From contig JAGXNR010000124.1 in NCBI GenBank assembly GCA_019894875.1, forward strand, positions 1 through 7,840: a stretch of DNA of 7,840 nt, written 5' to 3'. Shown piece by piece: positions 2,183-7,840 of this stretch (position 1 is its first letter; the number at the start of each line of letters is the position of its first letter). The DNA comes from Promethearchaeota archaeon. Its GTDB lineage: Archaea; Asgardarchaeota; Lokiarchaeia; Sigynarchaeales; SOKP01. The position numbers were made by a program, and so were the translations under genes. The notes beneath the pieces are model-generated. The model was not told the origin of the DNA, made no database searches, and worked only from the letters and a program-made list of their open reading frames with translations.

Positions 2183-4597
2183 ATGTCTGATAAGCAATCT
2201 AAGTCTAAAGAAATTAAAGAACCGAAAACGCTACATCCAAGAAAAACAAGGAAAGTTAACAATTTTACAGCGAAACAGCACACTAAATTAACCAATTTTT
2301 CTACTAAAATGAAAAATCAATTATCAAATATTTATTCTACTAAGATCGCTCATCAGGAAGTTTATTTAAAAGGCCAAGCGCCAACTTCATACTCTTTTCA
2401 ACGAAAGTTTTATGGGTTATATTTATTGTTTATATTTTATTCTCTACTGTTAATTATCGAAATTAACATTCCAGGTAGTAAGTGGATTAATTTATTGATG
2501 TTAGACAATCCATTTGCTTTTTCCAATGCAATTATAGGGTTTTTTATAGTGTTATCCTTTTTATTTAGCATCGATAAAGTAAGGATCTTTATTTTTGAAG
2601 AAAACACAGTAATTAAACAAATATTAATATACAGCGGTATAATTGTGGGATTGTATTTACTATTTCGATATATTTCAACAGATCTTAATTTTATGACTTA
2701 CTTATTGGCTCTATCCATGATCTGGTTAGTTCTCCTCTCCTCCAAGTTTTACATGTATTCAAGAAAATTTTCGACAAAAATAGAAGCTCGATTCATTAAG
2801 AAATATTCCGTTCCTAGATACTTTCTAGCAGTAATTATCCCATTTTTCATCTTGGCGGTCCTTGTTATTATTTCCTTATTTTATCGAAGTTTTTTGGTAT
2901 TCCTTTCATTAGATTTTTTTGCTGCGTTTGACCCAAGTAGTGCTGTTGTTGTTTATAATTTTGAAATGCGACGAATCATGCCCTTAATTTATCTTTCACT
3001 TGTTATGACTCTAGTTTTCATCATTTTTGAATTTATTTCCACCAGAAGAAGGGCTGAGACACGAAGAGCCGGAACATTTGATAATTTCACGTTTTCCTTA
3101 ATAGTATTGTTTATCTTTTTCTTTCAGATCATGCAGATAAGTATTTACTTACTCTTACAACCCGAAACGGTTACAGCTTTTAAGTCAACAATTGGTGCAA
3201 CGGGTTCAGCAGCTACGTATATCTTTATTCTTGAATTTGGTATATCTATGTATTTCTTATATCGAATTGTAAAAAAAACGGGAAAAACTTTGGGTTGGCG
3301 TATTTTGATTTTTAAACAAGATGGCTTAATAATGTTATGCTTGGCATGTGTATTAGCTCAAACACTTACTCGATTCTCTTTGGTAAGTGAAATACCTAAC
3401 CAGTTAATTTCTGATGTTGGAGTTATCCTAATGTGGGATAAGTACATAATTTCAGTTCTTCTGATATTTTTCTTAGGGTGTACAATATTAGTTTATTATA
3501 TCAAACCTCACGAAACGTCCATGTTTATGCGTCTACAGAAGGAGACAATAAACAAGGAAGAAGAAAGCATAGAAAGAATTTACAAAATTATCCGAAGTGA
3601 ATATATTAGAAGAGGTGAAGCATATCCACTTGAAGTAATTGAGAGAGAATTAATTAAAGCAACTCAATTGTCAAAAGGAAAGATTTATGATCTGATTCAA
3701 GAACTAGCAAAAAAAGATATGGATATTTTAATATCAGAAGAAAAGCAAGATGTCGGAATACCAATAAAAATGATTAATTTCACCTCAGTAACCGAGCGTT
3801 TTGAGAAAAAGGGAGTAGCTGAACAGAAGGCAAAAAAATTTCTAAGTGAAAGATTATTTGAAACTGCTCACCAAAAAGAAAAAAAAACTAGTAGGCTATT
3901 GAAGAGCGGTGAATCCGATGCAACAGAAAATAGCTTTATCTCCTCACTTACAACAGATTACGGTAAGAAACAAAAAGACAAAGAATTATATAACCAAAAA
4001 GTAAAGGATTCCTCAATATCTTTTACTTCTGAGCTACTCGCGAAGAATGTTACTAATCAAATAATCAATATCATTAAGAAAGAGTATATTTTTAGGATAG
4101 AAAATCCTGAAAAAAATCCAGATTTTTATATACCTATCTCAGAAATTTCAAACGAGGTTGAACTAGCTACTAAAATCACAGCTGGAGAGTTATATCCCGT
4201 AATAAAAGAAATAAGCAGAAAAGATTTAGAATTAACTTTAATAGATAATCCAGATGAGCCAGAAGACAAAAAAATCAAGTTTTTGCCATATTCTGATGAT
4301 AACATGAACTATAGCTTAGCGTACTTCAGGATTGAAGAATATTTAAGATTTAGAATTCTTGTAGCAAAAAATTTTCTGAAGAATTTAAAAACTAAAAGGG
4401 ATAAAAGAATACTTTCACAATTAATAAAAGAGATTCCAAAAGGAACCGATACGCAAAATTCTTGGATCGAATTGTTAACTATTTTACACCAATTATATCC
4501 AATATATACTGAACAGCTGAATTCAATTCCAGATACTAAGAAGATATTAAAAGAAGTAGATGCAATCATTAGAGATTACGAAAAAAAACAAGCATAA
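2183..4597 (+). CDS. Polytopic membrane protein with two tandem winged-helix-like cytoplasmic domains
   Basis: An 804-residue protein, counted from the ATG at 2183. The frame allows a GTG at 2171, but that GTGGGG sequence is better read as a weak SD-like element 6 bases before the ATG. Residues 1-75 are very basic and Ser/Thr-rich, hence cytoplasmic. About ten membrane segments follow, near 77-96, 113-130, 143-163, 170-188, 212-234, 264-285, 303-326, 340-362, 379-397 and 419-440, with an extra hydrophobic stretch at 236-249. An even number puts both ends in the cytoplasm. The tail holds two similar domains (462-535 and 623-704), each shaped helix-helix-helix-wing, joined by a charged Ser/Lys-rich linker, and then a helical end (about 710-804). 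No transporter, kinase or protease motif was recognised. A membrane-tethered regulator or adaptor is possible. It appears to be a single-gene transcript. The function is unknown. Confidence 0.85.
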   Translation: MSDKQSKSKEIKEPKTLHPRKTRKVNNFTAKQHTKLTNFSTKMKNQLSNIYSTKIAHQEVYLKGQAPTSYSFQRKFYGLYLLFIFYSLLLIIEINIPGSKWINLLMLDNPFAFSNAIIGFFIVLSFLFSIDKVRIFIFEENTVIKQILIYSGIIVGLYLLFRYISTDLNFMTYLLALSMIWLVLLSSKFYMYSRKFSTKIEARFIKKYSVPRYFLAVIIPFFILAVLVIISLFYRSFLVFLSLDFFAAFDPSSAVVVYNFEMRRIMPLIYLSLVMTLVFIIFEFISTRRRAETRRAGTFDNFTFSLIVLFIFFFQIMQISIYLLLQPETVTAFKSTIGATGSAATYIFILEFGISMYFLYRIVKKTGKTLGWRILIFKQDGLIMLCLACVLAQTLTRFSLVSEIPNQLISDVGVILMWDKYIISVLLIFFLGCTILVYYIKPHETSMFMRLQKETINKEEESIERIYKIIRSEYIRRGEAYPLEVIERELIKATQLSKGKIYDLIQELAKKDMDILISEEKQDVGIPIKMINFTSVTERFEKKGVAEQKAKKFLSERLFETAHQKEKKTSRLLKSGESDATENSFISSLTTDYGKKQKDKELYNQKVKDSSISFTSELLAKNVTNQIINIIKKEYIFRIENPEKNPDFYIPISEISNEVELATKITAGELYPVIKEISRKDLELTLIDNPDEPEDKKIKFLPYSDDNMNYSLAYFRIEEYLRFRILVAKNFLKNLKTKRDKRILSQLIKEIPKGTDTQNSWIELLTILHQLYPIYTEQLNSIPDTKKILKEVDAIIRDYEKKQA
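3566..3787 (+). repeat. Internal domain repeat, copy A (winged-helix-like)
   Basis: Encodes residues 462-535 of the membrane protein. Features shared with copy B are a first helix of the form IYKIIRSEYI (B: IINIIKKEYI), a second helix before a Ser/Thr-Lys/Ala-Gly turn, a third helix YDLIQELAKKD (B: YPVIKEISRKD), and a beta-wing ending in an I-K-M/F pattern. The similarity is at protein level, not DNA level, so this is an old duplication. Confidence 0.6.
4049..4294 (+). repeat. Internal domain repeat, copy B (winged-helix-like)
   Basis: Encodes residues 623-704 of the membrane protein. It matches copy A in helix 1 (EYI core), helix 3 (RKDLE against KKDMD) and the wing. It carries an insertion of about five residues, with Asn, Pro, Glu and Lys, after helix 1 and a more acidic wing (residues 688-696). 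The two copies are about 87 residues apart. Confidence 0.6.
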
Positions 4598-4686: not shown

Positions 4687-5682
4687 CTACTCTTGTGGTT
4701 CCCACCATTTTGCTATTGATTTAATGTATTCATCAGTCCAAAGATTTTTTATTCTACAGATTTTAGTGCATTCTAGGCATTTATCTGGACTGTAAATAGG
4801 ATGTGAAATATATTTCTCGCCTCCATCTGGGAGCAGGACAACGAGGGTTCCCGAATCCATCTTCTTTGCTGTTTCTATAGCAACATGTAAGGCTGCACCA
4901 GAACTAATTCCTGAAAAGATCCCCTCGGCTAAAGTAAGCATTCTGGATGCATGTGCCGCTTCTTCAAGAGTAACATATATTTTCTCGTCTAATCGAGATT
5001 CATCGAAAATTTTGGGTACATACGAGGTTTCTAAGTTCTTTAAACCTTGAATGCCTGATTTTGGTACAGGTTCTACACCAATTATCCTTATATTTGGGTT
5101 ATATTCTTTTAATCGTTCTGAGACACCCATTAATGTCCCGGTAGTGCCCAAACCACCGACAAACACATCAATCTCACCATCAGTTCCATCTATTATTTCT
5201 TCGGCTGTATATCTATAATGTGCTAATGGGTTATTTGGATTAGCAAATTGGTTAGGATAAAAATATTGATCTGGATTTTTATCAACAATTTTTTTCACAT
5301 AATCTTCTGCACCATTCATTCCAGCATCACCTGGTGTTAATGTTATTTTTGTCCCATACGCAGTCATAATTTTTCGACGTTCTATTGACATTGTTTCGGG
5401 CATAACAATTTCCAGTTGATAGCCTTTCACAGCACATACTAAAGCTAACCCAATACCTGTATTCCCACTGCTTGGTTCAATCACAATTTTATCAGGAGTT
5501 AAAATCCCTTCTTTCTCCGCTTCTTCAATCATAGAGATAGCAATACGGTCCTTTACTGAACCTGAGGGATTATATTTTTCCAATTTTGCTAACATCAATA
5601 CATTTGGGTTGGGATTACTTTTATTGATACGAACTAGGGGTGTTCTCCCTATTAACTTAAGTATGCTTGAGTAAAATTTCAT
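4687..5682 (-). CDS. PLP-dependent cysteine synthase, CysM/O-phosphoserine sulfhydrylase-like
   Basis: A 331-residue fold-type II PLP enzyme that would form L-cysteine from an activated serine and sulfide, in the cytoplasm. Visible motifs, counted from the ATG at 5682, are: the start LIGRTPLVRIN (10-20); SGSVKDR with the Schiff-base Lys44; PSSGNTG (70-76), the substrate loop; GLGTTGT (177-183), the PLP phosphate cup; GISSGA (258-263), whose Ser contacts the pyridine nitrogen; and LPDGGEKYIS (284-293). The PDGG-K-Y ending and the GLKN segment (213-216) resemble CysM and O-phosphoserine sulfhydrylases more than CysK. Lys215 falls where mycobacterial CysM has the phosphate-sensing Arg, so O-phosphoserine is a likely substrate (inference). 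An unusual tail carries Cys302, Cys305 and Cys309. The frame extends to a TTG at 5691, but the ATG fits the family start. It is the last gene of the copper cluster, 104 bases after its neighbour, and may also have its own promoter. Confidence 0.9.
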   Translation of the reverse strand: MKFYSSILKLIGRTPLVRINKSNPNPNVLMLAKLEKYNPSGSVKDRIAISMIEEAEKEGILTPDKIVIEPSSGNTGIGLALVCAVKGYQLEIVMPETMSIERRKIMTAYGTKITLTPGDAGMNGAEDYVKKIVDKNPDQYFYPNQFANPNNPLAHYRYTAEEIIDGTDGEIDVFVGGLGTTGTLMGVSERLKEYNPNIRIIGVEPVPKSGIQGLKNLETSYVPKIFDESRLDEKIYVTLEEAAHASRMLTLAEGIFSGISSGAALHVAIETAKKMDSGTLVVLLPDGGEKYISHPIYSPDKCLECTKICRIKNLWTDEYIKSIAKWWEPQE

Positions 5683-5715
5683 GATATCCAATCAACAACA
5701 TGTGTTAAATCAATC

Positions 5716-5786: not shown

Positions 5787-5972
5787 TTAGGTAACCTTTT
5801 TTTCTCGACATTTTTCACATACTACGCAATCAGCAGTTAAGTATCCATGTTCTGGTCCATTGTAGTACAAGACTTCTCCAGTTTCTTCATCAATAATTAT
5901 GTCTTGGGCTCCTTGTGGTAAAGTTTCCATAATATTCCCACATTTGCAACATTCTAGTTTTAATTTTCCCAT
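5787..5972 (-). CDS. Small cysteine-rich (zinc-ribbon-like) protein
   Basis: A 61-residue cytoplasmic protein with six cysteines in two knuckles. Cys8-Cys9-Lys-Cys11 gives a C-x2-C near the N terminus, and Cys49-x2-Cys52-x2-Cys55 lies near the C terminus. Between them is an acidic segment with Asp24, Asp28, Glu29 and Glu30, then Tyr36, Tyr37 and His42. Two C-x2-C pairs separated by about 37 residues match the general plan of zinc-ribbon or rubredoxin-like metal sites. The extra Cys9 and Cys55 are not needed for one tetrahedral site. The gene starts 18 bases after the ATPase stop, with an SD-like GAGATGG (5983-5977) just before the ATG, so it is in the copA transcript. A role in copper or zinc binding or buffering is inferred from context. 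No named family was recognised. Confidence 0.75.
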   Translation of the reverse strand: MGKLKLECCKCGNIMETLPQGAQDIIIDEETGEVLYYNGPEHGYLTADCVVCEKCREKKVT

Positions 5973-5990: not shown

Positions 5991-7840
5991 TTATCCTATT
6001 ATATCCATAGGTTTCCCATGATGTTCCGGAATCGGTTGAGCACCACAACTAGCACCCATCCAACATACTAGCTGATTACCTTCCTTGTGCATATTTTGAC
6101 CGCAATGCATTGGAAGATCTTGCTCCAATCCACATTCCACACATTTTAATTTTTCCATTTTTTTTTCCTCCTCTTTTTTTTGAATATTTTCCTCTTTTTT
6201 TTCTTCTACTTTACTTATATTGGAATCTTTCATCTGCATCAACTTAGGATCCATCGCATCATAATTTTTGAATCTTTCAGGGTCTCGTTTAAAGTGGGTT
6301 TCGCAATTTGGATTACAGAAATGATAGATTTTATTTTTATATTCATATTCAATTGCACGTCTGGGGTCAATCTTCATCCCACATACCGGATCCGTTACCT
6401 TCTCTTGAGAGATTAATAGTCTTTCTTCTTCAAGTTGTTGGGGTGTTTTCGGTTCAAATTTTTTGAGTAAAAGGGCATTCAAGACAACAGATACGCTAGA
6501 TGTTGCCATAAATATTGCAGCTAGATAAGGAGGTAGAAAGAGACCAAATAATCCATATAAAACTCCTGCAGCTAAAGGAAGGCCTATAATATTGTATATA
6601 AATGCCCAGAATAGATTAGTTATCATTTTTCTGTAAGTTTTTTTCGATAAATTAATCGCCGAGACGACATTTCTAACATCTCCTCTCATGAGAACAACAT
6701 CGGCTGTTTCAATTGCGACATCAGTTCCAGAACCAATAGCAATTCCTACATCTGCTTGAGCTAATGCAGGAGCATCATTAATCCCATCACCAACCATCCC
6801 AACTATCCTTTTTTCCCCAGATTGTTGGAGCTTCTGAATATTTAAAGCTTTATCATTTGGTAATACTTCAGCTAAAATGTGCGACTCGTCAAATTTTAAT
6901 TGGCGCCCTATATGTAGAGCAGTCTGCATGTTATCCCCCGTTATCATATAAATCTCTATCCCCATTTTTCTCAGCATTTCTAGCGCATAAGGGGCTTGAT
7001 CTTTCAACTTATCAGAAACACCAATAATTCCTCTTACATTATTATCAATGCTTATTAAGATAGTTGTTATTCCTTGTTGCTGAAATTCCTCAAATGTAAC
7101 CTTATATTTTTCAATTGAAATTTCATTATCAATCATTAATTTTTCATTACCAATCAATACACTCCTTCCTTTTATACTGGACTTAATCCCTTTCCCTGGA
7201 ATAGCCTCGAACTCAGTAACAGGTTTGAGATCTATAGCCCTTTGGTTTGCTTCTTCTATAATAGCCCTTCCAAGTGGATGTTCTGAACCCATCTCTGCGC
7301 TTCCAGCATAAAGTAAAACATCATTATCATCATAACCTGATCCTGTTAAGGTTTTCTCTGAAAAAATTGCTGAAACTTTAGGTTTACCAACTGTCAAAGT
7401 ACCTGTCTTGTCAAACACAATCGTATTAATTGTATTAATAGATTCTAGCGAATCGCCACCCTTAATTAATAAACCATTTTCAGCACCTTTACCCGTTCCA
7501 ACCATGACCGCGGTAGGAATAGCCAATCCTAACGCACAAGGGCAAGCAATAACTACAATTGATGTAAATATTTGTAAAGACGTCTCCAGTTGTGTAACTT
7601 GAAGTTCGGGATATACTTGAGTCCCAATAAAATACCAATAGAGAAAGGCACTGATGGCAATTATTATAACTGCGGGAACGAAATAATTGCTAATTTTATC
7701 AGCTAGTTGTTGTTTTGCTGCTTTTCTACTTTGAGCTTGCTTAACAAAATCTATTATTTGAAATAACAAGGTTTCTTTTCCAATTTTCTCAGTCCTCATA
7801 TGAATTAGGCCAGTTTGGTTCACTGTCGCCCCGATTACTT
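5991..7840 (-). CDS. copA: Cu+-exporting P1B-1-type ATPase CopA with C-terminal metal-binding modules (5' end outside window)
   Basis: ATP-driven export of Cu+ across the cytoplasmic membrane. The frame runs off the right edge, reading VIGATVNQTG, which is actuator-domain sequence, so the N-terminal part (any HMA domains, the first membrane helices and the TGE loop) is missing. Visible in order are the metal-binding CPC in a membrane helix (7544-7536), the phosphorylation site DKTGT (7412-7398), the nucleotide-binding HP dipeptide (SEHPLG), TGD, GDGINDAP, then FIYN and MATSS in the last two helices. CPC plus YN plus M-x3-S is the Cu+ signature of P1B-1 pumps. After the last helix come a TRASH/YHS module (6398-6261), a Lys/Glu-rich linker, and a second Cys/His/Met-rich module (6158-5994). 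A strong SD and ATG inside the frame could start a free copy of the last module. The small Cys-rich gene follows 18 bases later. Confidence 0.95.
   Translation of the reverse strand, partial: VIGATVNQTGLIHMRTEKIGKETLLFQIIDFVKQAQSRKAAKQQLADKISNYFVPAVIIIAISAFLYWYFIGTQVYPELQVTQLETSLQIFTSIVVIACPCALGLAIPTAVMVGTGKGAENGLLIKGGDSLESINTINTIVFDKTGTLTVGKPKVSAIFSEKTLTGSGYDDNDVLLYAGSAEMGSEHPLGRAIIEEANQRAIDLKPVTEFEAIPGKGIKSSIKGRSVLIGNEKLMIDNEISIEKYKVTFEEFQQQGITTILISIDNNVRGIIGVSDKLKDQAPYALEMLRKMGIEIYMITGDNMQTALHIGRQLKFDESHILAEVLPNDKALNIQKLQQSGEKRIVGMVGDGINDAPALAQADVGIAIGSGTDVAIETADVVLMRGDVRNVVSAINLSKKTYRKMITNLFWAFIYNIIGLPLAAGVLYGLFGLFLPPYLAAIFMATSSVSVVLNALLLKKFEPKTPQQLEEERLLISQEKVTDPVCGMKIDPRRAIEYEYKNKIYHFCNPNCETHFKRDPERFKNYDAMDPKLMQMKDSNISKVEEKKEENIQKKEEEKKMEKLKCVECGLEQDLPMHCGQNMHKEGNQLVCWMGASCGAQPIPEHHGKPMDIIG
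6156..6173 (-). promoter_or_regulatory. Internal Shine-Dalgarno and ATG inside copA
   Basis: On the - strand GAGGAGG (6173-6167) stands 8 bases before an in-frame ATG (6158-6156). Translation from it would give a 55-residue protein (6158-5991) made only of the last Cys/His/Met-rich module: Cys6, Cys9, His18, Cys19, His24, Cys32, Cys38, His46, His47. The site is as strong as the genuine SD at 326-332. It also encodes part of a Lys/Glu-rich linker, whose AAA/GAG/GAA codons can mimic an SD by chance. Confidence 0.45.
6261..6398 (-). other. TRASH/YHS metal-binding domain within CopA
   Basis: This segment begins DPVCGMKID and contains KIYHFC, spaced as C-x21-C-x3-C. That matches the TRASH pattern (C-x19-22-C-x3-C) known from archaeal and bacterial heavy-metal chaperones, sensors and ATPases. 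In CopA it would bind Cu+ on the cytoplasmic side and deliver it to the pump or regulate it. Placement after the last membrane helix, rather than at the N terminus or in a separate CopM-like protein, is the notable point. Confidence 0.8.

Follow-up and report, generated by a model that had tools for sequence, protein, structure and literature searches.

In Escherichia coli, one copper-pump gene, copA, gives both the pump and a small copper chaperone, CopA(Z), which we take to be the pump's N-terminal heavy-metal domain. To judge from its title, Drees et al. 2017 reports differential transcript formation together with frameshifting for this gene. The frameshifting of E. coli copA is described as well supported (PMC9548414). 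In archaea, Cas11b of Haloferax volcanii is made from inside cas8b, as shown by mass spectrometry and by mutation of the ATG, and a potential Shine-Dalgarno (SD) sequence, GGATG, is upstream of the internal start (PMC11899642). This was the only archaeal precedent found among the matches listed in our literature search, and those matches included no other relevant paper on internal starts, whether of CopA or of Asgard genes.

Here we describe a copA gene in which translation from a second, in-frame start very probably yields the pump's tail as a free protein, judging by comparison of related sequences. The window, the whole stretch of DNA analyzed, is 7,840 nucleotides from a Promethearchaeota archaeon (contig JAGXNR010000124.1). 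As in E. coli, one copper-pump gene would yield a pump and a small protein. However, CopA(Z) is described as a frameshift product, whereas the candidate here is C-terminal, lies in the same frame, has a second start, and is not a heavy-metal-associated (HMA) domain. By its position and frame, the candidate does not match an E. coli-type frameshift product, which is N-terminal and ended by the frameshift. Like Cas11b (PMC11899642), the copA module is the C-terminal part of a longer archaeal gene and would be freed from an in-frame internal start. In contrast to Cas11b, which is a CRISPR effector subunit, the module is part of a membrane pump; its SD is mostly strong and conserved in the lineage, GTG also occurs as the start, and the evidence here is comparative.

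Table 1. Features of the copA locus, in window coordinates.
Feature	Position	Strand	Remarks
CopA-like P1B ATPase	5991..7840	-	gene cut by the window end; frame continuous with the module
YHS domain of the pump	6264..6398	-	residues 481-525 of P0001; PF04945, E 4.5e-11
Lys/Glu-rich linker, also holding the ribosome-binding site	6159..6263	-	predicted mostly disordered
In-frame Shine-Dalgarno GAGGAGG	6167..6173 (6173-6167)	-	dG -10.1 kcal/mol
Internal start codon ATG	6156..6158	-	in frame with the pump
Cys/His/Met-rich 55-residue module, the pump's terminal domain and predicted free protein	5991..6158	-	
Next gene, 61-aa Cys-rich small protein	5787..5972	-	directly downstream of copA

The pump frame carries the motifs CPC, DKTGT, GDGIND, YN, and MxxSS. 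We take CPC in TM6, YN in TM7, MxxSS in TM8, and the DKTGT phosphorylation site to be the P1B-1 (Cu+) set, and by these motifs the window pump appears to be a P1B-1 Cu+ ATPase (CopA). The NCBIfam model TIGR01511 matched this incomplete pump with 423 bits against a cut-off of 397. The pump is of the Lokiarchaeal type, and the closest one in our sample, L030, is 91% identical over 396 columns. An Rfam scan of the window gave no match at the gathering cut-off.

The 61-aa protein encoded directly downstream is apparently a degenerate relative of the module, and its gene is probably an operon partner of copA. Of 45 Lokiarchaeal-type fused loci, 29 have a small CxxC gene that starts at most 260 nt downstream, as do 32 of 61 loci overall, and several of these small proteins resemble degenerate module copies with different metal ligands. 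After the copA genes, on the same strand (minus, 4687-5691), the window encodes a cysteine-synthase-like PLP enzyme (PF00291).

The sequence-only reading had placed GAGGAGG and an ATG in frame before the last module of CopA and had proposed that the tail from this ATG could also be made as a free protein. The coordinates of both elements read exactly on the minus strand, and the tail is exactly 55 residues and rich in Cys, His, and Met. The spacer between SD and ATG is 8 nt (6166-6159), and the module's stop is at 5993-5991. The pairing energy of this site beat that of all 15 other in-frame ATGs tested in the window gene, and pairing as strong was found at 0.4% of the gene's codons. When the same K/E-rich peptide was recoded synonymously, the energy was reached in 9.6% of trials (p 0.096). 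Thus, the window by itself is only suggestive.

Relatives came from genome contigs, of which 80 of 126 loci were kept, and from a survey of the phylum to which L001's genome belongs, in which 127 of 227 genomes had the module at E 1e-8 or better. Part of the matches in this survey was taken (30 loci, 34 stretches), and G036, G037, G094, G098, and G135 were among those left out. Removal of duplicates gave 61 loci, the window included, at which an ATPase or YHS frame ends in the module. SD energies were analyzed at the 56 loci given a start, a set without L039, L048, L128, L140, and L144. For L046 and L049 the ATT was taken as the start, and for L148 a position one codon away from the correct ATG, which likewise gives -9.2. 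The codon counts and the downstream CxxC count used the 45 Lokiarchaeal-type loci, among them the window, from which L039 was excluded by hand and L048 (Lokiarchaeota) by a numbering rule. L021 was left out because its contig begins about 30 codons upstream. The synonymous control consisted of 1000 recodings per gene with that gene's own codon usage. Pairing energies were calculated against an assumed 16S tail; a 16S-tail-like and putatively 16S sequence, GGCTGGATCACCTCC, was matched in 5 of 10 genomes.

Mean SD pairing was -8.9 kcal/mol across the 56 loci, whereas 1092 other in-frame ATGs in these genes gave a mean of -2.6 kcal/mol. At 54 of the 56 loci, pairing was stronger than the mean of the locus's own synonymous recodings. 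Taken singly, 11 of the 56 reached p 0.05 or less against synonymous codons; most did not, because the K/E peptide itself permits SD-like codons. When the tree was thinned, the SD remained above expectation in 37 of 39, 28 of 30 (sign p 4e-7), 16 of 18, and 7 of 9 tips (p 0.09). For 47 of 61 terminal modules, an in-frame ATG, GTG, or TTG that pairs at -7 or better lies 4 to 15 codons before the first Cys, whereas this -7 criterion was reached in 66 of 1813 twelve-codon windows from the bodies of the same genes. The internal site was also more open than control ATGs, with a mean unpaired probability of 0.67 (58 loci, the starts of L048, L144, and L148 being provisional) versus 0.47 (232 ATGs).

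The sequence-only reading had named as its check that the SD and ATG should be kept at the base level while the linker varies, and the outcome was favorable. Linker peptides vary among relatives, and the site can move register. Codon -5, five upstream of the start, encodes Glu in 35 of the 45 genes, and it is GAG in 34 of these 35, compared with 19 of 168 linker Glu codons at -7 to -30. The lone GAA is that of L014, which has a different SD, GAAGGTGA. Expressed as a proportion, GAG makes up 97% at codon -5 and at most 39% in any of the 31 other conserved Glu columns, and the median of the 32 columns is 19%. The 31 columns together hold 213 GAG in 1184, and two of them never change, being fixed as GAA. 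On the tree, Glu at codon -5 changes once; the 31 other Glu columns change 165 times in all. In L001, L020, and L030 the SD is displaced by one codon, so that the residues differ and the SD bases are retained. The residue at -4 is V, E, D, or S, and the first base of its codon is G in 87%.

The start codon was examined in the same set. At the Met position, the 45 Lokiarchaeal-type genes have ATG 38 times, GTG 5 times, and ATT twice. Val at this position is encoded by GTG in all 5 cases, whereas GTG accounts for 290 of the 2524 codons for Val elsewhere in the gene bodies. Among 119 listed homologues of 238 matches, the start residue is M in 110, V in 7, and L in 1, and the remaining homologue has its Met one residue later. 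For the 20 non-terminal modules of tandem-module pumps, the same position holds I (10), G (3), M (2), V (1), and four other residues once each; 17 of the 20 have no start-capable residue there. Among a further 15 homologues, found with a bacterial pump, a Met lies at most nine residues before the first Cys in 12, a Val in 1, and neither in 2. A same-frame internal start codon of the Cas8/Cas11 kind is present in the window gene and in most of the 45 Lokiarchaeal-type genes. Together, the codon data support selection for the SD bases and for the start codon in their own right, over and above the peptide.

Fourteen of the 61 loci fail the -7 criterion. The related genes L036, L037, L038, and L040 retain the ATG with a weak SD (-3.9), and in L006, L022, L033, L041, and L048 the pairing lies between -5.8 and -6.6. 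Of the others, L140 and L149 have a weak SD, and L128 is masked by N. L048 falls within the Lokiarchaeal clade; it has no Met where the other genes carry it, and its sole candidate is a GTG eight codons before the Cys. Two sister genes, L046 and L049, have a strong SD (GAGGTGGAT and GAGGAGGTGGAA, respectively) and ATT where the others have ATG; ATT may be a rare start codon here, or the start may have been lost in this pair. Taken one by one, five bacterial pumps showed no significant SD advantage over the synonymous expectation (p 0.13-0.66). Base-level selection on the ribosome-binding site is indicated for the Lokiarchaeal set, the five bacterial pumps excepted.

These bacterial CopA proteins (L069 from Proteobacteria, L078 from Deltaproteobacteria, and L155-L157) have no YHS domain and end in the module. 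An in-frame AAGGAG or GGAGGG and an ATG precede the module in them, and their linkers are unrelated. The module may have reached these pumps by transfer or arisen there by convergence. Its bacterial spread was 6 of 395 and 5 of 395 genomes in what was largely one sample searched twice, and viral contigs gave one partial match. In other Asgard archaea (L057, L067, L137, L141, L142, and L145), we observed paired modules, in one frame or in two small frames next to each other; those of L145 are on the N-terminal side of a P-type ATPase frame.

Relatives were also found to encode the module as a separate gene, the other check that the sequence-only reading had named, and at two loci this gene lies directly behind an unfused copA-type gene. 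One pair is archaeal (L043) and one is bacterial (L158). In L043, which shares a contig with the fused L011, an unfused copA of 837 residues ends with a stop at 3973 and the free module begins with an ATG at 4001 after a weak SD (-2.9). In L158, a free module, which has a GGAGGA site, comes after a CPC ATPase frame. L039 has a free module copy behind another gene, and GAGGTG precedes the ATG of this copy. In the Thorarchaeal genomes scanned, the modules are encoded by free genes, and the stretches examined contain no copA-type frame. Twenty-nine homologues are of free-protein length, 16 of them exactly 55 residues; some of the 29 may derive from fused genes cut short where a contig ends. Mean pairing was -7.0 at the 41 of 45 free loci scored; among the 41 are L021, a paralogue that lies downstream of L019, and tandem copies that are non-Lokiarchaeal. 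We also considered a complementary distribution, in which pumps without a module start would have a separate free gene instead (Fisher counts, 4/5 versus 1/45 and, similarly, 4/5 versus 1/48). This was dropped because L039 and L144 carry an in-frame ATG with an SD 14 codons before the module.

Chaperones of the CopZ/Atx1 type are HMA (PF00403) folds. CopZ-type chaperone genes occur beside copA, and the module gene likewise lies directly behind the copA-type gene in L043 and L158. However, no Pfam or NCBIfam model matched the module above cut-off. The identity of an HMA copper chaperone (CopZ/Atx1) was rejected for it, as PF00403 was absent from the module at E 1 or better. A PDB sequence search with the module returned nothing significant, and Foldseek and VIA gave weak matches only, to desulfoferrodoxin (1dfx) and to PriA residues 430-488. 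By sequence, the module looks like two half-sites, CxxC...PxHCGxxM and CxxxxxC...PxHHxxxM. It can be compared with desulforedoxin and zinc-ribbon-like metal sites through its two CxxC...[H/C]CGxPM-like half-sites, the fold matches being weak. AlphaFold2 modeled the 55-residue module alone with a mean pLDDT of 95.2 and with strands only. The model of the 138-residue tail, in which the internal Met is residue 84, had a mean pLDDT of 70.0, with residues 53-83 below 50, and the linker is predicted to be disordered over most of its length.

We weighed internal initiation against other accounts of these data. The sequence-only reading had itself offered one, in which the linker is a fossil of gene fusion and the SD and ATG are unused relics of an unfused module gene. 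A fusion origin is likely, since unfused pairs of copA and module genes exist; this and the loss of the SD or the ATG in a few lineages speak for relics. However, a relic would not hold GAG at codon -5 in all genes but one with Glu there while other Glu codons drift, and a relic start with Val would not be GTG every time. For the Lokiarchaeal set we therefore reject this account, which we consider improbable. It could also be that the peptide K-E-[EDV]-[DE]-K-K-M is kept as a charged hinge of the pump and is merely SD-like. The motif is indeed fairly constant as a peptide in Lokiarchaeal pumps. However, codon choice is constrained as well as the peptide, the -4 codon mostly begins with G although it encodes different residues, and most non-terminal tandem modules have no start-capable residue at this place, so that we regard a pure peptide constraint as very improbable. 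Chance co-occurrence in an A/G-rich linker is compatible with the window's own p value against synonymous codons, and the excess of such sites at terminal modules over control windows leaves it a negligible likelihood.

A further account has the SD used on a short transcript of its own, from a promoter inside copA, or in a role other than initiation, such as pausing. The differential transcript formation reported for E. coli copA speaks for the former, whereas pausing leaves the conserved ATG or GTG unexplained. We consider this account unlikely, and a short transcript would be a variant of internal initiation, not a refutation of it, because the same two proteins result. The production of the pump and a free 55-residue protein from one frame, as the sequence-only reading proposed, is supported by the base-level conservation of SD and start, by the free module genes, and by the tandem modules.

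We propose the following model. Initiation at the copA start would give the full pump, with its YHS domain and with the module tethered by a disordered linker. Ribosomes on the linker-encoded SD would start at the internal ATG, or at GTG in some relatives, and release a free, soluble module; initiation there is presumably efficient. The free module would bind Cu(I) (or Zn/Fe) and transfer metal to the pump or buffer or sense metal for it. Its Cys, His, and Met content and its tie to a Cu+ pump make it a putative metallochaperone, and it may instead serve in buffering or sensing or handle another metal. The arrangement could have come from a copA-module pair in which the intervening stop was lost and the second start was retained. 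A small CxxC protein is encoded downstream in many of these loci; therefore, a free module is not obviously needed there, and such cells may have other free modules. That copA is a dual-output gene, giving a tethered and a free module through a conserved internal ribosome-binding site, throughout Lokiarchaeal genomes and in a few bacterial pumps, is in our judgment an evenly balanced proposition.

If true, this would be a second archaeal case of in-frame internal translation, and it would reach the logic of E. coli CopA and CopA(Z), in which one gene gives a pump and a small metal protein, through another mechanism of translation. The parallel with E. coli copA becomes directly testable at the level of the site (ATG 6158, GAGGAGG 6173). 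Copper would perhaps set the ratio of pump to chaperone. A lineage-wide case in an Asgard copper pump would suggest that internal initiation is used more widely and that free domains have been missed by gene annotation.
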